Origin: Diplonema papillatum
Lineage: Eukaryota > Euglenozoa > Diplonemea > Diplonemida > Diplonemidae
Direction of reading: 5' to 3'
Assembly (NCBI GenBank): GCA_030068145.1
Contig: JAPJBO010000477.1
Coordinates: 108,168 to 172,167 of the forward strand
DNA: 64,000 nt
Under the pieces are notes generated by a model that had not been told where the DNA came from, made no database searches, and saw nothing but the letters and a program-made list of their open reading frames with translations. Below are positions 13,426 through 63,245 of the stretch, piece by piece; within the stretch, counting starts at the first letter, position 1, and the number at the start of each line of letters is the position of its first letter. The position numbers were made by a program, and so were the translations under genes.

Positions 13426-14312
13426 GTCCCACTTTTTTCGATCACCAAAACTGACGTTTGAGGGTTGTCCCACTCTCGAAAAAAGTGGGACAACCCTCAA
13501 ACGTCAGTTTTGGTGATCCAAAAAAGTGGGACAACCCTCAAACATCAGTATTGGTGATCCAAAAAAGTGGGACAACCCTCAAACGCCAGTTTTGGTGATC
13601 GAAAAAAGTGGGACAACCCTCAAACGTCAGTTTTGGTGATCCAAAAAAGTGGGACAACCCTCAAACGTCAGTATTGGTGATCCAAAAAAGTGGGACAACC
13701 CTCAAACGTCAGTTTTGGTGATCCAAAAAAGTGGGACAACCCTCAAACGTCAGTATTGGTGATCCAAAAAAGTGGGACAACCCTCAAACGTCAGTATTGG
13801 TGATCCAAAAAAGTGGGACAACCCTCAAACGTCAGTTTTAGTGATCGAAAAAAGTGGGACAACCCTCAAACGTCAGTTTTGATGATCGAAAAAAGTGGGA
13901 CAACCCTCAAACGTCAGTATTGGTGATCCAAAAAAGTGGGACAACCCTCAAACGTCAGTTTTGGTGATCCAAAAAAGTGGGACAACCCTCAAACGTCAGT
14001 TTTAGTGATCGAAAAAAGTGGGACAACCCTCAAACGTCAGTTTTGGTGATCGAAAAAAGTGGGACAACCCTCAAACGTCAGTATTAGTGATCGAAAAAAG
14101 TGGGACAACCCTCAAACGTCAGTATTGGTGATCGAAAAAAGTGGGACAACCCTCAAACGTCAGTATTGGTGATCCAAAAAAGTGGGACAACCCTCAAACG
14201 TCAGTATTGGTGATCGAAAAAAGTGGGACAACCCTCAAACGTCAGTATTGGTGACCCAAAAAAGTGGGACAACCCTCAAACGTCAGTTTTGGTGATCCAA
14301 AAAGGTGGGACA
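13426..14312. repeat. 41-bp minisatellite, about 20 units, headed by an inverted unit
   Basis: The unit is GTGGGACAACCCTCAAACGT followed by CAGT(T/A)TTGGTGATC(C/G)AAAAAA, with a 41-bp period (for example 13526 to 13567). Variation is concentrated at three sites: TTTT/TATT, CC/CG before the A-run, and G/A in GGTGAT. The left edge holds a unit in opposite orientation (13441-13473), forming a perfect 33-bp arm with 13485-13517 across an 11-nt spacer, plus part of a second inverted unit (13421-13440). No encoded protein: stops occur in each unit. Confidence 0.95.
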
Positions 14313-14892
14313 ACCCCAGTTTTTGTTGTCTGAAAAGTGGTCTAGCTGTAGATTTCTAAGTGAGAAACACCAACAGGATTGTTGAAATGGGGTTGAAAAG
14401 TTTATTGGAAAACCCGTACCGTTTGGGCGGGGGGCGTAGCCCCCCGCACCCCCCTGTTTTTCATGTTTTTTGGCGGGATATCTGAAAAATTTCTGAAAAA
14501 CTCGCGGAGAACACCAATCCGGAGTGATTCCAGAATTCTGGAAAACCGGACCCTCCTGGGGGGAAAAGGTGGGTCCCCCACCCCCCCCCTATAAATGGTG
14601 GGCTGGTGGCCCGCTCAGGAAAAAATCTGTGCTCCCTAAGCGAGGAACTTAATTTCATCATCCACGGCTGCCTCGTGCAGCTAGAGAACCCCGACTGTGG
14701 AGGACAACAAACAGTCAAACAAGGTACCTTTAATTTTTTTGTTCGAGACTGGAGGTCCTATGAACATGCAATGTGAATAGCCTCTATTCGAGCCAACCCG
14801 GCTTTTCTTGCAACAATTATGAAACTGTATTGTTTTTGGACTAGATAATCGTGCAGAGCAAGCTTTTTTCCCTTCTGGCAAAATGCACAGGG
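14313..14892. repeat. Spacer with G-run/C-run hairpin motif
   Basis: At 14413-14455 there is an ACCGT-type sequence followed by GGGGGGCG-TAGCCCCCCGC and a C-run. The same arrangement occurs at about 1447-1490 (reverse), 30061-30108, 30613-30652 and 30739-30783. No gene seen in the rest. Confidence 0.55.
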
Positions 14893-14957: not shown

Positions 14958-15944
14958 TTTTCCGGTCGAAGATTGTTTTCGAGGTTTGTTGGGTTTCGGG
15001 GTCTAATGCGCCCGAAATTTGCGTTTTTGCGGAGTTTCTCATTATCTCGCGGTATTTGGGCACCACGGGAAACAGAGTCGAGGGTCTCCCCCCCGGGTAC
15101 TGGCGCTAAACTTGCTACCACACGCCGAACTCAGCGCGCGAACAGCGCAAGCGTAACCTACCACCTCCCCCGTATCCCGAGGACAGCCCTCAAAACCCCA
15201 ACTTCCCCTCTCCCCCCTTTTTTTTTCTCCCCCAGTTTTTTCCTTTTTTCCTCCCCTAATCCGTGCCGCGTAACACACAACCGCCGAGCAACACGAAACC
15301 ACCCAGAAGAAAAGCCAGGCACCGGGATCTTCCTGACGAGCATGCAACCCGGTGAACTTAATCAAGAGTCGAAGATTAGCGTCGAAACTTCCTGGCTTTT
15401 CACGCCGTAGCAGAACGACCACACCCTACCCAATCCCAAACACCCCCTAAACGCGTTATGGGACTTCACAAGGTTTTACAACGGAACGACACATCACCCG
15501 AAACGAGCGGCACCCTCTCACTTTTCTCAATCCCCTCCATACCCAAGCCTCTACGGTCAACCGGAGACTTTAAAATACCGACCTTCTAATCCACAAATAA
15601 CGCTAAAAATTTAACTCGCCACTGAAAAATTAAAAGGTTAAGTTTATCTCCAAAACCAGTCGACCTAAGATAGTAGGTCTACCTCCCCTTTACAACAAAA
15701 GTCGAAACTGCTCGTGCGTTTCGTTCATTGGCTGCGGATTCGAAGACTTTTCGGAAGGAGGACTCGCATGCGTGCGCAAAGAAATCCCAGAGCTGTTCAA
15801 AATGCCAAAAAACTCCCTTCCAAGGGGGCTCTCCCTCCTTTCCATTCATTGTGCCTTCCGCCGCCCGAAAAGCTTATACATCAACTTAGTTGCAGCCTAC
15901 ACTCACAGGTAAGAGGTGGGGCGAAAGATAACAACTGTATCATC
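14958..15944. other. Spacer and presumed 5' flank of the next gene
   Basis: No gene recognised. The 14958-15100 part could be the body of a SINE headed by the tRNA-like sequence. An acceptor-like CACTCACAG at 15900-15908 lies 37 nt upstream of the next start codon and could be a cis- or trans-splice site. Confidence 0.4.
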
Positions 15945-16625
15945 ATGCCACTTGTAGCAAGTGTTCTGAAGAAGAAGCAGAAGAAGGGAAAACATGACCG
16001 TTGGGACCACAACAACGCAGCGCTGACGGAATGGAAGGCTGGCGAGGATAAAAGGAGTAAAAAACGAAAGCGCGAAGAAGAAGAAGTGGAAAGAGAAGGG
16101 CTCAACCTTAAGCTTGACCGGCAAATGACTGATGTTTACAAACGCGTCGAAGCTCTTGATGAGGAGAATTGGACGAAGAAACAGAAGAAAGATCATGCAG
16201 AGCTTGAATTCGTGAGACTTGGGGGAATCGGTCTTAAGAAGAATAAGTGCTCGTTTACAAAGTACCTGGAACGTTCGAAGAAACAGAAGAAAGAAGATGA
16301 CGAAAAAGCCAAGTTAGAGCTTAAAACCGGTGTATACGACCTCGTCGAAGGGTCGAAGTTGAAGGAAAAGAGGACGAAAGACATCCTCCGTGGTGTTGAA
16401 GTAGAGCACAAGAAAAAGAAGGAAGCCAAACGACAGGGGAATATTCACGCTACTACCATCGGTCAGGCGAGGGCAAGCGAAGTTGTTCTTGACCGCAAAC
16501 GGGTAAAGCAGATGGAAATTCGCACACAGAAGAAGCTTCGCGAGGCCTCTTCTGAAGGCCGAAGTAAAAACCGCGGTTCCATGTGGGATGACAAATACGA
16601 TATCAATAAACACAACGTATGCTAA
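15945..16625 (+). CDS. Lysine/glutamate-rich basic protein, probably nucleolar (possible C1orf131/DUF4602-like)
   Basis: A 226-residue single-exon product. It opens with a basic K-K-K-Q-K-K-G-K signal-like cluster, continues with K-R-K-R-E-E-E-E, then a central conserved-looking block (E-F-V-R-L-G-G-I-G, about residues 90-98) followed by helical Lys/Glu repeats, and ends in a short M-W-D-D-K-Y-D tail. I chose the Met at 15945 because the upstream open frame (from 15714) is compositionally different and contains an acceptor-like CACTCACAG. The layout, with a charged N-terminus, one short F-V/R-x-G block and then basic helices, resembles small nucleolar ribosome-biogenesis proteins such as DUF4602; I am not certain of that family. 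Codon use is less GC-biased than in THI4 or transaldolase. Confidence 0.6.
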   Translation: MPLVASVLKKKQKKGKHDRWDHNNAALTEWKAGEDKRSKKRKREEEEVEREGLNLKLDRQMTDVYKRVEALDEENWTKKQKKDHAELEFVRLGGIGLKKNKCSFTKYLERSKKQKKEDDEKAKLELKTGVYDLVEGSKLKEKRTKDILRGVEVEHKKKKEAKRQGNIHATTIGQARASEVVLDRKRVKQMEIRTQKKLREASSEGRSKNRGSMWDDKYDINKHNVC

Positions 16626-18695: not shown

Positions 18696-21600
18696 ATGCA
18701 AGTATCTCTAAATGTCATCGGGAGCGGGAGCATCGTCTTCTGCTTGGTGGCCGCGGTAGCGCTGTCGGTGTCTTTGTCGTTTACGTCCGCAAATCGACAC
18801 TTGTCGGACCTGGAGAGTTATGGAAGTGAAAGTCTAGCCCTGTGCTACGAGAACGTCGTGAGCGACGCGGTCGACCTCGTGCGCAACATCATGCAAAAAA
18901 AAATTGACAAAACCCGCACTGTAGTCGTGTCCCTCCTGTCACAGTTCCGGAACATGGACAACACCATTCGTCAGTCCTTCGCAGACAGAGACGGCTCAGA
19001 GCGGGTTGAATTCTACCGGAGGCTCATGCCCTTGCTCGGTGCTATGTGGAACCACCACGACCTCGCATACCTTACCGTGTTTGACGAAACCTACGGCGTG
19101 GGGTTCATCGAGCACAGCTGGAGGTGGTCCGGAGACTCCAGAAAACCGCACCCACACGGTACTTTTCTCGCCATCAACGAGGGCAATTGGACATACTATG
19201 GTACAGAAAACGGTCAAGGCGGCTTCGCAGATGCACCGTGCAACCGGTTAGTCATGTTCATGGGAGCAGGAGCCGGACCGTGTGGAAAGTGTGCGATGCC
19301 TTCGTCATACTGGTCGAAGGATTCGATGCCAGTTAGGGAGGAGCAATACTGGAAACTGAAGGACGGTGAGACAATGTGGTCCAACATCGTGCCCTTTTCC
19401 ACGAGCACGGGGGTGCTGCTAATGTCCAGAATACACCAAGTCTACAACTCTTCCGTGTTCACCGGGCTCGCGTTCGGCCTCAATGCCGTAAGCAGGGCGT
19501 TGTCCCTCGCGGCTTCTGCTACAGAACGCCTATTCATAGTTGCTCGGGACCCAAGCGACAGGGGTTATCTCGTCGGGGTTTCTCACGGGGAAGCTGTTGA
19601 AAAGGGCTCGGCCATCGGTCTAAATAACGAGCCTGAGCCCGCCGCCATTCGCCTCCACTGCACCAATGCGTCCGATCCTGTGATCAGGGACACATCCCAG
19701 AACATGCAGGACTATTTTGAGTCACTCCCAAACGATACGAGAGTCCAGCTCGAAAACGATATCTTCCATCCCGTTTACGATGAACAGCAGAAGGACGCTG
19801 CCCTCGTCCGTATCTCGTTGCTGGTGAACACTACTTTGTCACCCGTGTTCTTGCACTCAACAAACGAAACTGTGAACGAAATGGAGATCACAGACTACTT
19901 CCTCGAGATTGTCCCCTTCAAAGACACCGCAGGTATCTCCTGGTGGGTTGTGCTGCTTGTAGAACGCAACACCATCTCTTACAGTATTGATGCCGCAGAA
20001 AAAAAAGGTAGTGTGAAGCAGGCAACGTACTTTGAAGAAGAGGAAGCTACCAAAAACAGTACCTTTCTGTTTGTTATTTTTGTCGTGTTGTGCCTGACAC
20101 TAATCAGCGCGGCACTCACTGTGGTCGCCACAATGCGGATGGTTGGGCCGCTGAAGGAGTTGGAAAAGAGAATGGCCGACGTCGCTAAAATGCGTTTGGA
20201 AGGAGCCACAGACCTGAAGAACACGTACATGACCGATCTCCGCAGCATGCAAGTCTCCTTTCGGTTGATGGTGGCCGCTCTGGAAGAGTACAGGCAGTTT
20301 TTGCCGGCATCGTTGCTAGCGAGGAATGACACAGCGGAGATCATCATGACCGAAGACGCAGCGGACAGGCGGATGGATTTGGACGTAATGCCATCGCCCG
20401 AGTCATCGCCGCAAGACATGTCGAGGAACGGACGCGCGAAGAAGTACCGTCTCGAAAATTCATCCTCGCAGAATTCATCTATAGCTGGATCGAACGCGAT
20501 GCCCCGCGCGAATACCTTCAGGAACCTAATGCGCGTGGGCCTGCACATGAAGACCCGCGTTGCCGAGGTCCTTATCGGTGCCCACGACTTCCCGCAGTTC
20601 CTCAAAGCGGTGCTGTCGAATTCCGACGCCGCCGCGGATGTAGCCGGCTTCCTTCAGAAGTACATGCTCGGCATTGTGCCCGAGGCGAGCGCCCACCACG
20701 GCTCCATAGTCTTCTTCAAAGCCGACCAGGTTCACGTCGACTTCAAAGGAATTCTCCCCTGCAGCGACGTGGTCGGGAAGGCAGCGCGCTTTTGCTGCGC
20801 GGTCCTGGCGAACTACAGGAAGCACGTCAACCGGCACGAGCAGTACTTCGCCAACGCGCACGTGTCCCTGCACGTGGGTGCCGCGTTGGTGACCGCGTTC
20901 GTGGGCAACATGGGGACGCCCGCGATGAAGGGCATTCAAGTGATCGGGGAAGGGGTCCGTTTGGCTAGCATTATGCAGACCGTCGCCAGCGAGATGAGAC
21001 TCGGCTTAGTTGCGAACGCCCCGTTCTGTGCGAGACTGCCGCAATTGGAGTATACTACAGGTCCAGCGGACTGCGTCGTGGTGGAGAGCATGGTGTACCT
21101 GGCGTCGGCAGTCATTGAACAACCTAGGTCTGGCGCGCCGAATTGGATGTACCGACCAGTTCAGACCGTCGACACGTCTTTCACGACGGCTTGGAACTTC
21201 ATTTATGCGGGAAGATTGCCGGAAGGCACGGAAAAGCTGGCCCACGTGTCTCTCGACTCCGACTACGCCTCGTTGGCGGGCCAGGTAGTAAAGCGACTGA
21301 CCCTTCACCGAAGAGAGACCTCTCTCCTCGGTTGTAAGGCCGTGCCGCAGGACACTGACCTCTACAGGTTCAGTGAGCCCCAGCTGTCTGGAGATACCAG
21401 CCCCTTGAGCTCCCCGGCAGCGTCAGCCGCCTTCTTCCTCCTCGGCACGTGCACATCGCAGCAGGGCTTGAACGACTCCGGCGTGCTCGAGGAGCTTGAA
21501 ACGCCCATCTTTTCGAGCGGAGCCCAGGCTTTGTCAGCTAGCGCCTATCACAGATACTATGTGGAAGCCTGCACCGTGCCGTCGCAACTAGCCGATCTGC

Positions 21601-21833
21601 ACGACCGAGCGCTGGACCTTGACCAACCATTGGAGTCCGCTCTTTCGTCACCCAGAACGGCGACCCCGCGGGGCAGCAGCACGAATATGCGTAACGGCAT
21701 CAAGCGTTTACGCATTGGCAGAGGTGTGGGGTCACCCCGGCTTGTTAGCAACAGAAGCCAGAGCCAGTCCAGCGGCACTGCCTCGCTGGCCAGCCAATCA
21801 TCTCTTCGCGTTGCGTCGCCCTGTCGGGAGTGA
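18696..21833 (+). CDS. Receptor-type protein with Cache-like ectodomain, HAMP-like linker and degenerate class III cyclase domain (copy 1)
   Basis: The product is 1045 residues from the Met at 18696, chosen because similarity to copy 2 begins there (M-x-(V/I)-S-L-N-x-x-G-S-G-S-I-V). A membrane segment lies at about 9-30, followed by a long extracytoplasmic region with Cache-like blocks. A second membrane segment (about 452-475) leads into a HAMP-like helix pair (G-P-L-K-E-L-E-K-R-M). A class III nucleotidyl-cyclase fold covers about 611-815. Catalytic positions are altered: the first metal Asp is Gly (L-I-G-A-H-D-F, Gly628); the second metal Asp is kept (A-D-Q-V-H-V-D-F); the transition-state Asn and Arg of V-N-x-A-x-R are Arg755 and Ile (G-E-G-V-R-L-A-S-I-M-Q). 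It is therefore probably a non-catalytic signalling receptor. The Ser-rich tail ends in a motif shared with copy 2. No introns. It lies 2.1 kb upstream of its paralogue. Confidence 0.85.
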   Translation: MQVSLNVIGSGSIVFCLVAAVALSVSLSFTSANRHLSDLESYGSESLALCYENVVSDAVDLVRNIMQKKIDKTRTVVVSLLSQFRNMDNTIRQSFADRDGSERVEFYRRLMPLLGAMWNHHDLAYLTVFDETYGVGFIEHSWRWSGDSRKPHPHGTFLAINEGNWTYYGTENGQGGFADAPCNRLVMFMGAGAGPCGKCAMPSSYWSKDSMPVREEQYWKLKDGETMWSNIVPFSTSTGVLLMSRIHQVYNSSVFTGLAFGLNAVSRALSLAASATERLFIVARDPSDRGYLVGVSHGEAVEKGSAIGLNNEPEPAAIRLHCTNASDPVIRDTSQNMQDYFESLPNDTRVQLENDIFHPVYDEQQKDAALVRISLLVNTTLSPVFLHSTNETVNEMEITDYFLEIVPFKDTAGISWWVVLLVERNTISYSIDAAEKKGSVKQATYFEEEEATKNSTFLFVIFVVLCLTLISAALTVVATMRMVGPLKELEKRMADVAKMRLEGATDLKNTYMTDLRSMQVSFRLMVAALEEYRQFLPASLLARNDTAEIIMTEDAADRRMDLDVMPSPESSPQDMSRNGRAKKYRLENSSSQNSSIAGSNAMPRANTFRNLMRVGLHMKTRVAEVLIGAHDFPQFLKAVLSNSDAAADVAGFLQKYMLGIVPEASAHHGSIVFFKADQVHVDFKGILPCSDVVGKAARFCCAVLANYRKHVNRHEQYFANAHVSLHVGAALVTAFVGNMGTPAMKGIQVIGEGVRLASIMQTVASEMRLGLVANAPFCARLPQLEYTTGPADCVVVESMVYLASAVIEQPRSGAPNWMYRPVQTVDTSFTTAWNFIYAGRLPEGTEKLAHVSLDSDYASLAGQVVKRLTLHRRETSLLGCKAVPQDTDLYRFSEPQLSGDTSPLSSPAASAAFFLLGTCTSQQGLNDSGVLEELETPIFSSGAQALSASAYHRYYVEACTVPSQLADLHDRALDLDQPLESALSSPRTATPRGSSTNMRNGIKRLRIGRGVGSPRLVSNRSQSQSSGTASLASQSSLRVASPCRE

Positions 21834-23913
21834 CCCCCCTCCATCGAAATGCCCTCGCTCTAGCCACTAGAACTCGTCCGGCTGAGTTTCCTCAGATCAC
21901 CTATTGCTCCTCCCGCGCTTCTAGCTTCCAAGTATAATGGAACATCGCCAGCTTGCGCTCTTCATCGAATAATTAGTGGCGCGACGAATCCGAAACGAGC
22001 CAAATGCGTTCAGGGAGCTGTTTCAAGTCTTTGTTTCCTTCTACGAGGCTTACCTGCAAGCTCGGACGCTGGCACTGGCTGCGTGCATAGCGAAGGTACG
22101 GAAGGTTCCGCCTTCTCATTAACTTCATTTTTGCTCTTGCGTTTCTGTTTCATTCGTCTGGCTGTCTCTGAGACATCTTTCCGACAATGTGCACTGGCCA
22201 ATGGAAGTTTTCCGGCTCAACACCGTTTTCAGCACTTCGGGGACTAACTTGGGGTGAGTCACATAAACGACACAAGCGCCCACCAACCTTCCGGTGGTAG
22301 ACAAGTCAGTCACTACCGTGTCAGCCAAGCCGCCAAGCCGCCATGACGTCCTCGTTTTTTTTTCGTGCATAGTGGGTCGGCTAGTCTTGGCTGGTCGCCA
22401 TGAGAGAAACGGCCGACCTATGGCCGATCATTTCCCCACGTAAAATGGTCGTTTTCTTAACGATGTCATGACCTCAGTCAGTTTTGGCTGGTCAGGACTG
22501 CCGGTTTCTGACCCCACCGTACGCAGATGCACCAAATTCCACGGTGCATACCGCCTCAGCATTCGCATTACTGCATTTGCCTTGGGCGTTGGCGATGTAT
22601 CAAAAACACAGCCGCGCTCTCATCTAGCGAACCTTCGAAGGTCAGTGTCACCATGTCGTTGTTCATGCAGCAAAGACTCAGCTTTCGAGTACCTCTGGCA
22701 CGCCTTCTCGTGCTGTTTTTTTGTATAAGCACCTGCTTTGTAGGAAATACTTGAGGAGGCTGCCAGTTGCAAAAGATCAAAGGAGGTAAATGTGCTGTAG
22801 CCCACACGAAACACAGGCGACTCTGGGTTCAGTGGCGGGCGTAAGCGTTCAACAAAAAAGACCCATTTTGTAGTTGTATTGTTTCTCCCCCTCTAGCCTC
22901 CTTCGAAGTAAGCACAAGGCAGCCCCTCGAGTATTTTGGTTTCCCCAGTCTTTCTCGTAGCTGTTTTTGGCAGTCAAGCCGACAAACAGCAACATCGATT
23001 CGAAGTGCGAGCTGTGAATTCCACAAGCTGCCCCGTAAAGGACTAGCGATCGCAATGCGCTAACCGAACACCAGGTGTCCTGGAGATGCAAATGAAGACT
23101 GCCGGGGACAGTCTTCACTTTCCTTGTTGGGGGTCCCGCGATTGCGCGCCTTACAAAAGGTCGCTCATTTACCAGCCTCACCGCCCGCTTCAGCATTTAC
23201 CCTCATCCTGCCCGCCCTACACTTCGTCCTCTCTCATTTCTTCGGCTCCGCGAGTCAGCGCTAAAAAGAAACCTGAATAGCCAGAAAACAAAAGCCATCT
23301 CTCTTTTTCTGCCTCATGCCATCTTGAGATGACCTGGCGCACGCGCAGCTGAGCGAAGCACATGCCGTGGCCGGTGCCCATGCCACCTTGCAAGGGGAGC
23401 TTTCGTACGAGTTGCTAAGCACAGTTTAGAGAAGCCTCGGCGTGCTATCGACGATTGCTTCTTCGCACGGTCGAGCGCCGCGCGTTCGATGCGCCAGGAG
23501 GTGGTGTTTCTGCAAAGACACCTGCGTGTAAAGTTGCATTCCCACATCAGCACTGACAGGGACTGGGATATTCAGGCCGACAGCAGGTATCCTGACAGCC
23601 GTTGTAGCTGAGTTACGCTTGCATTCTTGTTCGGTGCTTTCGATGCGATCATTTGCGGAGGATGCAAAATACCGGTTGCAAAAGCTGTGACCCTCGTCCT
23701 CTCGCAATTCAAAAGCCGCACTTGCTGAGACACTGCAGCACTGCTATGTGGTGCTTATGTGATCCTTGTGGTGCAGACTTTCGGCGCCCAACTGAACTAA
23801 ATGATTCTGCAAATCACCCCGAACCAGGTGGAAACAAAGAGGCAAACAAAAATACCCAAATAAGCGAGAGCCAACCGACAAGCACATCGAACGCAGAAAG
23901 TCCGGAGGGAAAG
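21834..23913. other. Intergenic spacer between the receptor paralogues, with one 215-bp repeat
   Basis: A full copy of the 215-bp family lies at 22722-22937, preceded by a T-run. The rest shows no gene. The open frame upstream of 23914 (from 23653) is continuous with the second receptor but has unrelated, low-similarity sequence and is better read as 5' UTR. Confidence 0.55.
22722..22937 (+). repeat. 215-bp dispersed repeat, full copy
   Basis: It begins TGTATAAGCACCTGCTTTG after eight T and ends CCCCTCGAGTATTTT. It is collinear with the copies at 35332 and 3814. Confidence 0.85.
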
Positions 23914-26900
23914 ATGCCTCAGATATCACTGAATCTCGTGGGAAGCGGGAGCATCGTGATCTGCCTGATCGGCGCAGTCGTGCTCACGATCTCGCTTTCG
24001 TTCACTTCTTCTAAGAATCACCTGGACGAGCTGCAGAGCTACGGATCTGGGAGTCTAGACCAGTGCTATGAGACAGGAGTGTCCGACGCTGTGGACATGG
24101 TCCAGACCATCATGAACCGCAAGATGAAGCACATGCAAACCCTCATGTACAATCTCGTGGGGGAGTTCCATCGGATAGACGCAACACTCCGAGCAGCCTT
24201 GAAGGGGCGCGATGACGCCACACAAAACGAGCTCCTGGCAGACCTGATGCCCCTGCTTGCTTCGATGTGGAGTGAAGAGTCGATCTCCTACCTGACAATC
24301 ATGGATGACGTGGGCAATGGCGTTGGTTTCTTTGAGCAAGCCTGGATGTACACCGACGACCCCTCAGTGCGCGCGCCGCATAGCACGCTACTTGTGACAA
24401 CAGCCAGACCGATTAGTACCTTTGGCACGCTCGGCGATCATGGGAGATACTACAACGCTAGCTGCAACCTTGCCGGGCTGTTTGGAACCCGGAACCCGAG
24501 CGGAGGGTGCCCCTTCCCGTCATCAGCGTGGAACCTGACGAACATCCTGACCAACAGTCAGTATATGAAGGCGCTTCGCGTCGGAGACACCGTGTGGTCC
24601 GACACCATTTCGTTAGCGTCGTCCGTAGGAGTCATGCTGCTCAGTAAGTTCCCGTTGCGGCATGGGACTCCGCTACTGACGGGCGTTGCGTTCGGCCTCA
24701 CGGCAGTGACGAATTCGTTGTCGGAGGTCGTTGACTCTGTGACGGAGCGACTGTTCGTGGTCTCCCGCAGGCGCAGTGAGACGGGGTTCCTAGCAGGCGT
24801 GTCGCACGGTGTGGCAGCGAAGCTTCGAGAAGGGAGGAACCCGTTCACTGGGGGGATGGAGAACCGTACTTTCCCGATCCACTCCACCGAAGCCTCGGAC
24901 CCGGTTATCAGACTGGCGTCGCAGATCGCCCATGACGAGTTCAACGCCCTGAACCCGGCCGTCCGGGAGGCGTTCGACGCGGACATCTTCCACCCGATGT
25001 ACCTCCGGCAGCAAGAGTCCGTGACCCCCCTCGAAATCACTCTTTCGATCAACACCACGGAGTCCCCCGTCTTCCTCCATTCCCTCGGCGAAACCCTCAA
25101 CGAGATCGAACCGACCTCGTACTACATCGAAATCGTCCCGATGAAGGACACCGCGCAGCTGAACTGGTGGATTGTCCTCTGCATCGAGAAAAACGTCGTC
25201 ACCCGCCACCTGGAGACATCCGGCACCGCAGCCCTCGCGCGGCAGGCCGTCGCGTTCGACGGCGACAAGTCCGACGCGGAAGAGTCATACCTCATCAACA
25301 TCGCGATCGTCTTCTTTTTGACGCTGCTGGCCGCCATCTTCAGCATCGTGGTCACGCTCCGCGTGACCAAGCCGCTGAGCGAGCTCGAGAAGAAAATGAT
25401 GGACGTCTCGTCGATGAAGCTGGAGGGCGCGACCGACCTCGCGTCCACCTACCTGACCGAAGTGCACAGCATGCAAGGGTCGTTTAAGAAGATGGTTGCA
25501 GCCTTGGAGGAGTACAGGCAGTTCCTCCCGGCTGCGTTGCTCGCGAGAAACGAGACGGGGGACGACGAAGACGACGGCAAGTTGGAAGGCGGCATCGTGC
25601 CGTCGCCCGCGTCCTCGGCGAACCGGTACGGAAAGCCGGGGCAGCAAGGAAAAGCGTACTTGATTGACAACGACTCGTCGCAGCAAGCGTCGTCGGCCGG
25701 GAACTCGCACGCCGCGGGCGGGAACAACATCCGAGCCATGCTCCGCGTCGGCATCCGGGTGAAGGCGAAGGTGGTCGAGCTGATGCTCGGCATGTCCGAC
25801 TTTCCGACGTACCTGAAGCAGGAGCTCTCCGCCGGCGACGGAGCCGCGTCCGTCACCGATTTCCACTCGAAGTACCTGCAGCTGGTGTTCACCGAGCTGC
25901 AGCTGAACCAGGGATCCCTCGTGTCTTTCCAGGCCGACGAAATCCATGCCGACTTCAAAGGCATCCTCCCGTGCAACGGCGTCTCCGAGAAGGCAACGCG
26001 CTTCTCGTTCTCCGTCCTGGCGGGCCACCAGAAGCACCTCGAGGCCCTAGGCGAAGGGCCGACCGGGAAGCGCAGCTTGCACATCGGCGCCGCGCTGGGC
26101 CCGTGCTATGCGGGGAACATGGGAACGGCGTACATGAAGAATATCCAGGTGCTCGGCGAGGCTGTGCGCCTCGCGTCGATGATGCAGACCGTCGCTTCCG
26201 AAATGGGCGTCGGCATTGTTGTGAACGTGCCGCTGTCGGACCAGCTCCCGCAGGAGGAGTATTTCACGGCGACCGTCGACTGCATCGTACTCGACAGCAT
26301 GGTTTACCAGGCCATCGCCATCGTCGAGAAGCCGAAGAACCGCGGCACGCCCAGCTGGATGTACGCGTCGGCGCCGCCGGTGGATACCACCTACGCCGCT
26401 GCGTGGAGCTTGATCTACGAGGGGAAGCTGGCGGAGGCGCAGGAGAAGCTGCAGCAGACCCCCGCGACCTCGGAGTACGCGTGGTTCGCAAAGAAGGTGG
26501 CCGACCGGCTGACGCTCGGCAAGCGCGAGGCGAAGGTGCTCGGCGGGAAGTCGCGGAGGGACGACGACCGCAGCGGAACCGGCCTGCTGTCGACGGTCAC
26601 GTCGGCTTTGTTCAAAGAAGGTGGCACCAGCCCTCGAAGCTCGCCGGCCGGATCGCCGTCGCCCGTGCAAGTGCTGGGCACGGTGGGTGCTATGGTGCAC
26701 GGGGAAGGCAGCACACCGGCTGGCTCTACAGCCGGCGACATCGCGCCGTACATGGGGGCGGGCGCGCAGGCGCTCTCGGCTAGCGCGTACCACCGGTACT
26801 ACGTCGAGCACTGCACAGTTCCGACCGAGCTGGCAGACCTGCAAGACCGGGCGGCGAACTTCGCCGCCAACATCGACGACGAGGCGTTGGCCGCCGCCGG

Positions 26901-27087
26901 CAGCGCGGGCAACGTCCGCCGCGGCAAGCGCTCGAAGCGCCAGGAGGGCAGCAAGTCACCGCGCCCGGGCCGCCCGTTGGCCCGCAGCGGCAGCCAGTCG
27001 AGCGGCACGCCGTCCGTGGTCAGCAGCCACCCGTCTATCAAGGAGTCCCCGTTCCGCGAGGCGCCCCTCGGCGCCCGCGGCAACTAA
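23914..27087 (+). CDS. Receptor-type protein with Cache-like ectodomain, HAMP-like linker and degenerate class III cyclase domain (copy 2)
   Basis: The product is 1057 residues, collinear with the 18696-21833 protein along its whole length. The first membrane segment is at about 10-31, the second (I-A-I-V-F-F-L-T-L-L-A) at about 459-480, followed by K-P-L-S-E-L-E-K-K-M HAMP-like helices and the shared A-L-E-E-Y-R-Q-F-L-P-A block. A cyclase fold lies at about 610-815 with the same losses: the first metal Asp is Gly (M-L-G-M-S-D-F), Asn to Arg752 and Arg to Met (G-E-A-V-R-L-A-S-M-M-Q). The second metal Asp (A-D-E-I-H-A-D-F) and G-N-M-G are kept. The tail has Y-H-R-Y-Y-V-E and a terminal S-Q-S-S-G-T-x-S motif. 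Codon use is markedly more GC-rich than in copy 1, so the duplication is old or the two have different expression demands. Sensing of a small ligand by the ectodomain is inferred from the Cache-like architecture. Confidence 0.87.
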   Translation: MPQISLNLVGSGSIVICLIGAVVLTISLSFTSSKNHLDELQSYGSGSLDQCYETGVSDAVDMVQTIMNRKMKHMQTLMYNLVGEFHRIDATLRAALKGRDDATQNELLADLMPLLASMWSEESISYLTIMDDVGNGVGFFEQAWMYTDDPSVRAPHSTLLVTTARPISTFGTLGDHGRYYNASCNLAGLFGTRNPSGGCPFPSSAWNLTNILTNSQYMKALRVGDTVWSDTISLASSVGVMLLSKFPLRHGTPLLTGVAFGLTAVTNSLSEVVDSVTERLFVVSRRRSETGFLAGVSHGVAAKLREGRNPFTGGMENRTFPIHSTEASDPVIRLASQIAHDEFNALNPAVREAFDADIFHPMYLRQQESVTPLEITLSINTTESPVFLHSLGETLNEIEPTSYYIEIVPMKDTAQLNWWIVLCIEKNVVTRHLETSGTAALARQAVAFDGDKSDAEESYLINIAIVFFLTLLAAIFSIVVTLRVTKPLSELEKKMMDVSSMKLEGATDLASTYLTEVHSMQGSFKKMVAALEEYRQFLPAALLARNETGDDEDDGKLEGGIVPSPASSANRYGKPGQQGKAYLIDNDSSQQASSAGNSHAAGGNNIRAMLRVGIRVKAKVVELMLGMSDFPTYLKQELSAGDGAASVTDFHSKYLQLVFTELQLNQGSLVSFQADEIHADFKGILPCNGVSEKATRFSFSVLAGHQKHLEALGEGPTGKRSLHIGAALGPCYAGNMGTAYMKNIQVLGEAVRLASMMQTVASEMGVGIVVNVPLSDQLPQEEYFTATVDCIVLDSMVYQAIAIVEKPKNRGTPSWMYASAPPVDTTYAAAWSLIYEGKLAEAQEKLQQTPATSEYAWFAKKVADRLTLGKREAKVLGGKSRRDDDRSGTGLLSTVTSALFKEGGTSPRSSPAGSPSPVQVLGTVGAMVHGEGSTPAGSTAGDIAPYMGAGAQALSASAYHRYYVEHCTVPTELADLQDRAANFAANIDDEALAAAGSAGNVRRGKRSKRQEGSKSPRPGRPLARSGSQSSGTPSVVSSHPSIKESPFREAPLGARGN

Positions 27088-49383: not shown

Positions 49384-50842
49384 CCCATGGGCCACTCGCT
49401 ATACAGTGGGCACCCATGGACCAGGCAGACTCGCTTTACAGCGGTCGCCCATGGACAAAGCAGGAGTCGACCCCTGGTCGGCCACAGCGGTCGTCCATGG
49501 GCCAAGCAGGGGTCGACCACTGGTCGGCCACCCGCTTTACAGTGGGCACCCATGGACCAGGTAGTGGTCGATCACTGGTTGGCCACTCGCTTAACAGTGA
49601 TCGCCCATGGGCTAGGCAGGGGTCGACCACTGGTCGGCCACCCGCTTTACAGTGGGGACCCATGGACCAGGCAGAGGTCGATCACTGGTTGGCCACTCGC
49701 TTAACAGTGGTCGCCCATGGGCTAGGCAGGGGTCGACCACTGGTCGGCCACCCGCTTTACAGTGGGCGCCCATGGACCAGGCAGAGGTCGATCACTGGTT
49801 GGCCACTCGCTTAACAGTGGTCGCCCATGGGCTAGGCAGGGGTCGACCACTGGTCGGCCACCCGCTTTACAGTGGGCACCCATGGACCAGGCAGAGGTCG
49901 ATCACTGGTTGGCCACTCGCTTAACAGTGGTCGCCCATGGGCTAGGCAGGGGTCGACCACTGGTCGGCCACCCGCTTTACAGTGGGCGCCCATGGACCAG
50001 GCAGAGGTCGATCACTGGTTGGCCACTCGCTTAACAGTGGTCGCCCATGGGCTAGGCAGGGGTCGACCACTGGTCGGCCACCCGCTTTACAGTGGGCACC
50101 CATGGACCAGGTAGTGGTCGATCACTGGTTGGCCACTCGCTTAACAGTGATCGCCCATGGGCTAGGCAGGGGTCGACCACTGGTCGGCCACCCGCTTTAC
50201 AGTGGGCACCCATGGACCAGGCAGAGGTCGATCACTGGTTGGCCACTCGCTTAACAGTGGTCGCCCATGGGCTAGGCAGGGGTCGACCACTGGTCGGCCA
50301 CCCGCTTTACAGTGGGCGCCCATGGACCAGGCAGAGGTCGATCACTGGTTGGCCACTCGCTTAACAGTGGTCGCCCATGGGCTAGGCAGGGGTCGACCAC
50401 TGGTCGGCCACCCGCTTTACAGTGGGCACCCATGGACCAGGTAGTGGTCGATCACTGGTTGGCCACTCGCTTAACAGTGATCGCCCATGGGCTAGGCAGG
50501 GGTCGACCACTGGTCGGCCACCCGCTTTACAGTGGGCGCCCATGGACCAGGCAGAGGTCGATCACTGGTTGGCCACTCGCTTAACAGTGGTCGCCCATGG
50601 GCTAGGCAGGGGTCGACCACAGGTCGGCCACACAGCGGTCGTCCATGGGCCAAGCAGGGGTCGACCACTGGTCGGCCACCCGCTTTATAGTGGGCACCCA
50701 TGGACCAGGCAGTGGGCGATCATTGGTCGGCCCGCCGACGTCGTACGCAACCAGCTTGCGGAGTGCTGCGGCTTCTTTTTGCACGCCTGCCGTCATCACT
50801 GACCACTGCCTGGTCCATGGGCGACCACTGTAAAGCGAGTGC
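49384..50842. repeat. 110-bp higher-order minisatellite of paired 55-bp monomers, with inverted end unit
   Basis: The basic monomer is GCCCATGGRCYAGGCAGRGG then TCGAYCACTGGTYGGCCACY then CGCTTWACAGTGG (about 55 bp). Two monomer types alternate, giving an exact 110-bp period from about 49550 to 50620. A block of three dimers is itself repeated: the GTAGTGGTCGATCACTGG variant recurs at 49560, 50110 and 50440. The right end carries one monomer in reverse orientation (50802-50842) after about 80 bp of unrelated sequence. Because 110 is not a multiple of 3, each frame reads the same peptide in turn and then stops; I do not regard it as coding. Confidence 0.95.
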
Positions 50843-56039: not shown

Positions 56040-58300
56040 ATGTCCAAGCGCGCATCCGACGCTGAGAGCCCGGCGAGCAAGAACGCCGCGAACGACTGCC
56101 TGAGCGTTCTGAAGAAGTACACGACCGTTGTCGCAGGTACCGGTTTTGTTCTTTCCGTCCTTGACCGACCCACTATTTGTCGAAGTCAGTGCGACTCTCG
56201 TCTGGCGCTAGTCTGACTCGATTCTGCCTGTTTAGCTGTTTAGAAGAGACTTGCACTGAGCGGTGTAACGTCAGACTAAAGTCAGACCGGAAGCAAAGCC
56301 AGCACCTGGGATTCCCCCCAGCCGGAACAGGCTTGTACACTACAACGCAGCACGGTGCCCCCCTACTCTGCAACTACGCGTACGTCAGATACTAAGTGTT
56401 TTCGTGGGGCCTGGGCGCGGATAGGTCTCGCAGAGAACCGACCAACGGGGAATGCTTTGTGCGCTTCACTCGTTGACAATCTTTTCTCATTAAGCTCGAT
56501 GAAAGGGAGAAAACTAAATGGGTTTACACCCATTAACTTTCCGATTCCTTTGGAAGCCCACCAGTGCTGCACAAAGCTACAAGCCATGCAGCTGGCACCA
56601 CTGTGGTGCAAACTGCACGCAAACTCAGCGCCGCCCGAAAACGGAATTTTTGCCCTGGAAAACGAAAGAGCAAACGTCTGTCACCTGCTGTCGTTGGGAA
56701 AAATATTGTAGCCTGCCCACCTATTGTAACCTGCCCACCTGCACGCGATCGTCGGAATCTGAACCCGACCCTCATACAAAATAACATTCCAGACACTGCC
56801 GACTTCAACCTGATCGCGAAGTACAAGCCGCAGGATGCCACAACGAACCCGTCCCTGCTGTTGGCCGCCACCAAGATGGACGCGTACAAGAGCCTGACTG
56901 ACGATGCCGTAGAGTACGGCAAGAAGGAGGGCAAGACCCCGGAGGAAGTGTTGGACAAGACGGCGACGAAGCTCGCCGTGAACTTCGGAGTTGAGATCCT
57001 GAAGCACGTCCCGAAGAGAGTGTCGACCGAGGTCGACGCTCGCCTGTCGTTCGACAAGGAAGGCAGCATCAAGAAGGCGAAGGAAATCATCGCTCTGTAC
57101 AAGGCCGCTGGCATCGAGAAGGAGCGCGTCCTCGTCAAGCTGGCGTCGACGTGGGAGGGCATCCAGGCCGCCAGAGAGCTCGAGAAGGAAGGCATCCACT
57201 GCAACCTGACCCTGCTCTTCTCCTTCGCGCAGGCCGTCGCCTGCGCACAGGCGGGCGCCACCCTCATCTCGCCGTTCGTCGGCCGTATCCTCGACTGGAA
57301 CAAGCAGTTCAAGCCGGAGGCTGACTACAGCGGCAAGAACGACCCGGGTGTCGTGTCCGTTACCAAGATCTACAACTACTACAAGAAGTACGGCTACAAG
57401 ACGACCGTCATGGGAGCGTCGTTCAGAAACACTGACGAGATCAAGAACCTGTGCGGGTGTGACTACCTCACCATCGGACCCAAGCTTCTCGAGGACCTCA
57501 AGAACGACAACGGCGCCATGACCCCGGCCCTCAACGTCGAGGACGCCAAGAAGTGCGACCTTGAGAAGATCCCGGAAATGGAGCAGAAGGACTTCCTCTG
57601 GATGCACAACCAGGACAGAATGGCCGTCGAGAAGCTCAGCGACGGTATGCAACAACTTCCGCTTTCCGCTTCCCTCCATTTTTTCCTTCTCGTCGTCTTG
57701 CCATGCGATAGGCGATTGACACTGTCCCGACGAGTACCATTTTCTTGCCCAAAGTTATCACCCCGTTACGAAGCCGAGAAAGTTTATCGCTAGTTGTTGC
57801 ACCCCTCGCTTGCCCACCCGCCCTTGCCCCTGTTTTCGAGTCCAGTGCACTGCACGAAATGCGACCCTCGTCGCTCCCATATTGCAGGTGGTATCCCGGA
57901 CGTCTTTGGGGTGGAGAAGAACCATCCGAAGCCAGTTGCTGACAGTCGACGCCACGTGAAGAGTAAACTGCACAAACATGTGGACACGGTGTCAGAACAC
58001 CCGAAATGACGAGGCACCATAGGAAATGAGAGCGCTCTAAATAGGTCGAATAGTCGATGGGCAGCAACGACACGCATACACATACACCGATGCTACCAGA
58101 TACGATTTTCATACCAGTATCTGTCACCTTCAAGTCACCTGGAGACCTTAAGCCCCCCGGTCCTCAAACGAACTTTAACTCTAAAATGCAACCTCGTTGC
58201 GAACCCGTCAAACCCACCCATCCCCCCTGCAGGTATCCGCAAGTTCGGCGAAGACGGCGAGGAGCTCCTGAAGGGGCTCAAGAAGATCCTCGGACAGTAA
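56040..58300 (+). CDS. Transaldolase, three exons
   Basis: Exons are 56040-56136, 56793-57644 and 58233-58300, with introns of 656 and 588 nt, both phase 1 and GT-AG. The product is 338 residues, normal for the TalB/TAL1 family. It transfers dihydroxyacetone units in the non-oxidative pentose phosphate pathway, in the cytosol. The first exon gives K-K-Y-T-T-V-V-A. The Asp that follows (Asp17 of E. coli TalB, an active-site acid) is encoded by a codon split across intron 1. Exon 2 carries [11 protein letters not shown], the Schiff-base Lys148 in [18 protein letters not shown] and P-F-V-G-R-I-L-D-W. Exon 3 supplies G-I-R-K-F and the C-terminal helix. Intron 1 includes sequence repeated at 41636-41720, and its 3' half stays open in the exon 2 frame, so a single-exon reading from 56564 would be wrong at both ends. 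Confidence 0.96.
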
Positions 58301-62804: not shown

Positions 62805-63245
62805 TTCTCTTTCCACCCCCCGACAAAAATTTCCACCCCCCGAAAAGTACTTTCCACCCCCGAAAAGTACTTTCCACCCCCCGAAAAGTACTTTCCACCC
62901 CCCGAAAAGTACTTTCCACCCCCCGACAAAAAATTTCCACCCCCCGAAAAGTACTTTCCACCCCCCGACGAAAAATTTCCACCCCCCGAAAAGTACTTTC
63001 CACCCCCCGAAAAGTACTTTCCACCCCCGACGAAAAATTTCCACCCCCCGAAAAGTACTTTCCACCCCCCGAAAAACACTATCCACCCCCGGACAAAAAA
63101 TTTCCACCCCCCAAAAAGTACTTTCCACCCCCCGATGAAAATTTTCCACCCCCCAAAAAGTACTTTCCACCCCCGGACAAAAAAATTTCCACCCCCAGAA
63201 AAGTACTTTCCACCCCTCGAAAACTACTTTCCACCCCCCGACCAG
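62805..63245. repeat. 21-bp minisatellite with two palindromic unit types
   Basis: About twenty units of TTTCCACCCCCCGAAAAGTAC or TTTCCACCCCCCGACAAAAAA (with GACG/GATG variants), mostly 20-21 bp. GAAAAGTACTTTC is self-complementary across the unit junction, so each AGTACT unit boundary is a hairpin. All frames are open because the unit is close to 21 bp without stops; the resulting Pro-rich peptides are artefactual. Confidence 0.95.

Follow-up and report, generated by a model that had tools for sequence, protein, structure and literature searches.

What can a receptor do with a cyclase domain that has lost its catalytic residues? The question is raised by two neighbouring genes in a 64-kb stretch of the Diplonema papillatum genome (C477:108168-172167, hereafter the window; the assembly searched holds 271,365,524 bases in 2910 contigs). 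The two encoded proteins, here copy 1 and copy 2, are identical at 470 of 1071 positions (44%) in a full-length alignment. Judged from their sequences, it is very likely that both are receptors with a non-catalytic class III cyclase domain that is unable to make cyclic nucleotide. The original prediction had presented the pair as a receptor class of its own; receptors they appear to be, but they are no special pair, since they are part of a large family in the same genome.

The assignment to the class III cyclases needed independent proof, because no Pfam model for it matched either copy. No cyclase model was found in Pfam (E<=1) or NCBIfam scans of copy 1 and copy 2, and PF00211 was matched by only three of 18 family domains, with a best E-value of 0.012. 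A phmmer search of copy 1 against PDB gave three matches at E 1.1-1.8, none of them a cyclase. A profile of the 18 domains (A2), which lack catalytic residues and are called dead domains below, found CyaB in PDB at 2.7e-17, a homology beyond chance, and the domain of copy 2 alone reached CyaB at E=0.0027. The predicted fold is that of class III, and membership in the superfamily is by descent. To place this descent, a profile of 38 dead domains was compared with 20 PF00211 domains of the genome and CyaB. L052 (5.6e-29), L049 (6.5e-28) and CyaB (2.9e-25; E-values for this small set) scored far above the rest, which makes a CyaB-type cyclase the most probable ancestor of the dead clade. Six more domains matched at 1.5e-7 to 8.9e-5, and 12 of the 21 did not match at E<=10; we take the six to resemble transmembrane-type cyclases and the twelve to resemble yeast and trypanosome cyclases. 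A pattern scan with one family member, which detects close relatives only and leaves room for a bacterial source, gave five prokaryotic matches, none of which was confirmed.

Catalytic positions were assigned by mapping onto CyaB (Table 1 for copy 1), and at the same six positions copy 2 has, in order, G, S, D, N, R and M. Neither copy has the two metal-binding Asp residues, the purine-selecting Lys and Asp (or Glu and Cys), or the transition-state Asn with Arg. Half of a site, as in the mammalian C1 and C2 domains, is missing as well, as neither the metal-Asp pair nor the Lys/Asn/Arg set is complete in either copy. The mapping confirms that the second metal Asp is kept, that the first is changed to Gly and that the Asn/Arg pair is changed to Arg plus Ile or Met, as had been read from the sequence before. 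The same loss is seen throughout the 38 dead domains: the first Asp is found in 1/38, the Lys in none, the base-contacting Asp in none, the Asn in 1/38 and the Arg in none (with one gap in the first-Asp column and one in the Lys column). The second metal Asp, present in 35/38, is the only one of the six catalytic positions that stays.

A search of the genome with one dead domain gave 163 candidates, of which 145 were scored; 97 of them matched at E<=1e-3. Of the 35 matches that were read, 34 look dead (29 tabulated, five by eye) and one, C549:94413, is an active cyclase. Because matches are places and not genes, the total can only be estimated, at several dozen to about a hundred dead domains. 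The first 18 domains were open frames with a cyclase-like region reached with copy 1 (P0001; 44 genome matches, part of them fetched, several of these missing the cyclase part, which fell beyond the frame or the fetched DNA), and 20 further ones were chosen by hand across the ranks of the 97 matches, not at random. Membership in the dead group was decided by similarity search and not by residue; C549:94413, with a PF00211 match and intact motifs, was placed with the others. The genome also has 146 PF00211 matches to class III cyclases (again places and not genes, with 150 scored out of 166 candidates), which are often clustered, for example in C21, C1036, C45 and C221.

For comparison we used 28 rows, consisting of 20 of the 146 PF00211 matches picked across ranks, seven active receptors with PF00211 domains behind a double Cache (dCache) and HAMP-like front end, and CyaB; by eye, rows L042, L048 and L059 among them also deviate at catalytic residues. 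In the unrooted tree of 66 rows, all 38 dead domains lie on one side of a single branch (100/99) and the 28 PF00211-type or solved cyclases on the other. When each of the six catalytic positions was cut out together with the two columns flanking it on each side, and the four long rows L078, L027, L029 and L032 were dropped, the 34 dead rows that were left still stood apart (99/94). Copy 1 and copy 2 belong to a subfamily of nine dead domains (100/97 in the 66-row tree). This supports a common origin for the loss of the catalytic set in the 38 domains, before the duplication that gave rise to the two copies. An early loss had been predicted from the shared substitutions of the pair alone; we dropped that argument, as the one from 38 domains is stronger and independent of the pair.

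That the dead domain has been kept under selection, also part of the original prediction, is supported by substitution rates, estimated by Nei and Gojobori counting as the ratio of nonsynonymous to synonymous divergence (dN/dS). At dS 0.26-0.35, which is not saturated, the dead domains of three clustered receptors (C212:92390-140690) gave dN/dS of 0.24, 0.29 and 0.38; their ectodomains gave 0.47-0.58 at dS 0.76-0.94. Between copy 1 and copy 2 the ratio is 0.30 in the dead domain, at dS 1.45, and 0.26-0.28 elsewhere. These values point to purifying selection on the dead domain. The dead domains of the C212 cluster are 80-89% identical and the ectodomains 44-54%, a conserved output with a diverging sensor and perhaps with gene conversion. 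Several glycines are nearly invariant in the 38 domains (G737 and G740 in 38/38, G669 and G751 in 37/38), and the column of V732, Val in copy 1, is Gly in 35. The tail motifs YHRYYVE and SQSSGT, which had been put forward as conserved, are present, but they are specific to the pair or the subfamily; the family-wide mark of the tail is E-W-M-Y, which the dead clade shows and the L049/L052 and CyaB rows lack. W817 of this motif, D677 and the GNxG loop are common to dozens of diverged members. In L089:1723-5499 (-) and L090:660-3695, several hundred low-complexity residues lie inside the dead domain, with a long poly-Asn run in L089.

In front of the dead domain, structure prediction gives, between two transmembrane (TM) helices, a long helix and a pair of PAS-like lobes, which is the architecture of dCache and agrees with the Cache-like ectodomain proposed earlier. 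Pfam scans of the two copies gave no Cache model, and none of the Pfam Cache families matched at E<=1 among 16 family members. The HAMP profile PF00672 matched weakly in 8/16 of them at E<=1 (best E=0.0087), and HAMP chains appear among the PDB profile matches at E 0.31-1.6. Other dead domains are preceded by other sensors, including multi-TM regions (L081-L083 and L090, by eye). Domains of the DOMON, cytochrome b561 and cytochrome b5 type precede it in L084:48-3878 (DOMON and Cyt-b5 above the Pfam cut-offs, b561 below) and, by eye, in L088:2461-6501 (-) and L093:601-4863, the latter a longer frame of L073; these three are possibly redox-sensing receptors. L088 begins with an apparent haem peroxidase region (by eye). 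Behind the dead domain, the receptor-like L027:970-4548 (C37) continues directly into a Ser/Thr protein kinase (Pkinase, E=7.9e-48).

As a whole, the best explanation is that these are dimeric receptors with a non-catalytic class III output module, to which we give an even chance. Both genes would encode transmembrane receptors, probably acting as dimers, in which the double-Cache ectodomain would bind a small molecule and the second TM helix with the HAMP-like helix pair would transmit the change inward. The Cache and HAMP-like parts could set the relative position of the two dead cyclase domains in the dimer, so that the dead domain would serve as a dimerising, shape-changing output module without making cyclic nucleotide. 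The E-W-M-Y motif with the helical tail and the Ser-rich end may then present or hide a binding surface and relay the change to a bound partner, presumably a protein effector and probably a kinase, as suggested by the single example of L027. The retained second metal Asp would mark a binding pocket, or else a structural latch, that has been preserved. We hold this output mechanism more tentatively than the explanation as a whole.

Several observations weigh against this explanation. About 25 dead-domain frames were read from end to end of the open frame, with a single kinase fusion among them; introns could hide or split further domains. The HAMP assignment is weak, copy 1 scoring 12.6 bits against a cut-off of 25. 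The dN/dS of the pair alone is weak, as dS is near saturation, and in the C212 triplet the lower dS in the dead domain than in the ectodomain suggests gene conversion, which complicates dN/dS there. Finally, D631 in the subfamily together with R755 leaves a remote, theoretical chance of a rebuilt site.

The dead receptors could instead be regulatory subunits, dominant-negative or tuning: paired with active receptor cyclases through the dCache-HAMP-like front end common to both, they would turn their partner off or on by allostery. The seven active receptors of the same genome (alignment A3) have a similar front end and the canonical motifs F-T-D-I, K-T-I-G-D and V-N-x-A-x-R, which shows that this type of front end can also be followed by an intact site. 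The HAMP-like segment of copy 1 and copy 2 is on average 37% identical to that of the seven (14% in the ectodomain), no less than to that of other dead receptors (35%), and the 146 PF00211 places offer many possible partners. However, the first Asp, Lys, Asn and Arg are all lost, and no half-site is offered as in C1/C2 or soluble guanylate cyclase. Since both half-sites are broken, an active partner domain cannot make up a full site; the earlier suggestion of dimerising with an active cyclase therefore fails as complementation in the manner of C1/C2, and we dropped it. The active receptor cyclases are, moreover, of a distant type: a profile-profile comparison with the dead domains gave no signal (the active profile being built from seven sequences), which means only that the two are far apart, as both are class III, and in the tree the seven group (100/100) with the 12 domains unmatched by the dead-domain profile. 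A cyclase-cyclase heterodimer is thus unlikely and pairing would rest on the front end. Overall, we regard regulatory subunits as unlikely.

It is similarly doubtful that the former active site works as an intracellular sensor, which would bind ATP, GTP, cyclic nucleotide or phosphate without turnover and gate the receptor from inside. The second metal Asp has stayed in 35/38 domains though the rest of the site is gone, a basic residue adjoins the base position in 31/38 and occupies it in 25/38, and after strand 3 an Asn is conserved in 27/38 and a Cys in 28/38. On the other hand, the purine Lys and the base Asp are lost, the base position in copy 1 and copy 2 is Gly and Asn, respectively, and not basic, and the conservation of Gly, Asp and aromatic residues may be purely structural.

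A working cyclase with a rebuilt site, with D631 standing in for the first metal Asp, for instance, and R755 acting in the transition state, is highly improbable: D631, three residues downstream of the first-Asp position, is Asp in 8/9 subfamily members, and L076, a dead domain outside the subfamily, retains both metal Asp, but in the predicted model D631 opens the first helix, its column is Asp in only 3/29 other dead domains, and Lys, base Asp, Asn and Arg are missing together in both copies. Of the catalytic residues that the original prediction allowed might be supplied elsewhere in the domain, the Asp has a possible substitute in D631, and nothing was seen that replaces Lys, Asn and Arg together. 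Decaying leftovers, intact by chance or gene conversion, are just as improbable, for in spite of the wide sequence divergence and the very long inserts in L089 and L090, no stop interrupts the roughly 1050 codons of either copy, the dead domain has a dN/dS below 0.4 and the shared residues noted above recur across dozens of diverged members.

Table 1. Features of the two receptor genes (positions in the window; catalytic residues of copy 1 mapped on CyaB).
Feature	Position	Strand	Remarks
Receptor copy 1 (P0001)	18696..21833	+	1045 aa, one open frame without stops
Copy 1 ectodomain	18786..20051	+	residues 31-452; long helix and two PAS-like lobes, double Cache (predicted)
Copy 1 second TM helix and HAMP-like helix pair	20052..20333	+	residues 453-546; TM helix by eye
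Copy 1 pseudo-cyclase domain and helical tail	20517..21311	+	residues 608-872
G628 codon	20577..20579	+	first metal Asp position
F673 codon	20712..20714	+	purine-contact Lys position
D677 codon	20724..20726	+	second metal Asp, retained
G746 codon	20931..20933	+	base-contact Asp position
R755 codon	20958..20960	+	transition-state Asn position
I759 codon	20970..20972	+	transition-state Arg position
W-M-Y (817-819)	21144..21152	+	family-wide, start of helical tail; W 36/38, M 34/38, Y 35/38
Copy 1 Ser/Pro-rich C-terminal tail	21312..21833	+	with YHRYYVE and SQSSGT; role putative
Receptor copy 2 (P0002)	23914..27087	+	1057 aa from MPQISLN start, without stops; P0002 has one extra codon in front
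Copy 2 ectodomain	24007..25275	+	by alignment with copy 1
Copy 2 second TM helix and HAMP-like helix pair	25276..25557	+	by alignment with copy 1; TM helix by eye
Copy 2 pseudo-cyclase domain and helical tail	25729..26523	+	matches CyaB on its own; member of profile A2
Copy 2 Ser/Pro-rich C-terminal tail	26524..27087	+	from sequence and alignment with copy 1

The closest known systems are the CyaB-type cyclases (CyaB of P. aeruginosa, 3r5g; cyanobacterial CyaC, 1wc1; and the GAF cyclases L086 and L087 of the same genome). In these the catalytic set is intact, whereas the dead clade has lost it, and L086 (by Pfam) and L087 (by eye) have a GAF front end where the dead receptors have dCache, TM helices and a HAMP-like segment. 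Kinetoplastids, the sister group of diplonemids, have receptor-type adenylate cyclases with just one TM helix; their ectodomain resembles periplasmic binding proteins and their cyclase is intact. Like them, the receptors described here form an expanded gene family of transmembrane receptors whose class III domain is C-terminal; they differ in dCache, two TM helices, a HAMP-like linker and a dead domain. Bacterial dCache-HAMP chemoreceptors and cyclases share dCache between two TM helices and the HAMP-like segment, but not an output that is a dead class III cyclase. The mammalian C1/C2 domains and the halves of soluble guanylate cyclase likewise have a class III fold with missing catalytic residues; there, however, one half-site each is complete, while here both halves are broken in one domain. 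Among kinases and phosphatases, pseudoenzymes are a familiar kind; class III cyclases are generally taken to be enzymes. As in pseudokinases and pseudophosphatases, for example PHLPP2 in the accessible text of PMC12002173, an enzyme fold has here outlived its activity, in a different fold. Our literature search, which mostly did not extend to subscription journals, found, among the papers listed, no report of dead class III receptors, of a comparable class III dead clade or of diplonemid cyclases; in the accessible text the word cyclase occurs 0 times in PMC10161547 and PMC12697944 and 2 times in PMC12699882. As far as seen, receptor and fold are already known, and a large non-catalytic clade as receptor output has not been described.

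The rest of the window holds an EF-hand protein whose long coiled tail is rich in Ala and Gln (43-1227), a Lys-rich protein matching the 40S processome assembly factor FSAF1 (15903-16622, E=5.5e-6) and a transaldolase gene (56564-57790, Pfam TAL_FSA, E=1.3e-89), the frame of which may start in another exon (by eye). Tandem arrays lie at 13479-14316 (41-base unit, 20.4 copies), 49484-50732 (110 bases, 11.4 copies) and 62809-63241 (21 bases, 20.7 copies). Neither Rfam families nor a spliced leader (SL) with <=3 mismatches was found in the 64 kb. In the whole genome, a 22-base piece of the diplonemid SL had 342 forward and 303 reverse matches (<=1 mismatch) and its reversed control 0. According to the accessible text of PMC10161547, the published assembly of D. 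papillatum has 280,293,864 bp in 6181 contigs, a 39-base SL and 110 SL RNA genes; the 645 matches found here may include fragments or reflect another counting rule.

A broader scenario, possible but rather less probable than not, is that a CyaB-type domain lost its activity once in diplonemids and spread behind many sensors as a universal non-catalytic output, handing the signal to kinases. If true, these cells would have a signalling language free of cyclic nucleotides beside a large set of ordinary cyclases. Diplonemids are among the most abundant groups of marine flagellates. A large dead clade there, almost entirely missed by the standard Pfam model, would mean one more class of receptors and would warn both against equating counts of cyclase genes with cyclic nucleotide capacity and against overlooking the dead ones. 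As D. papillatum is described as genetically tractable in the accessible text of PMC12697944 and PMC8611851, the family would also offer a tractable genetic test of what the cyclase fold does without catalysis.

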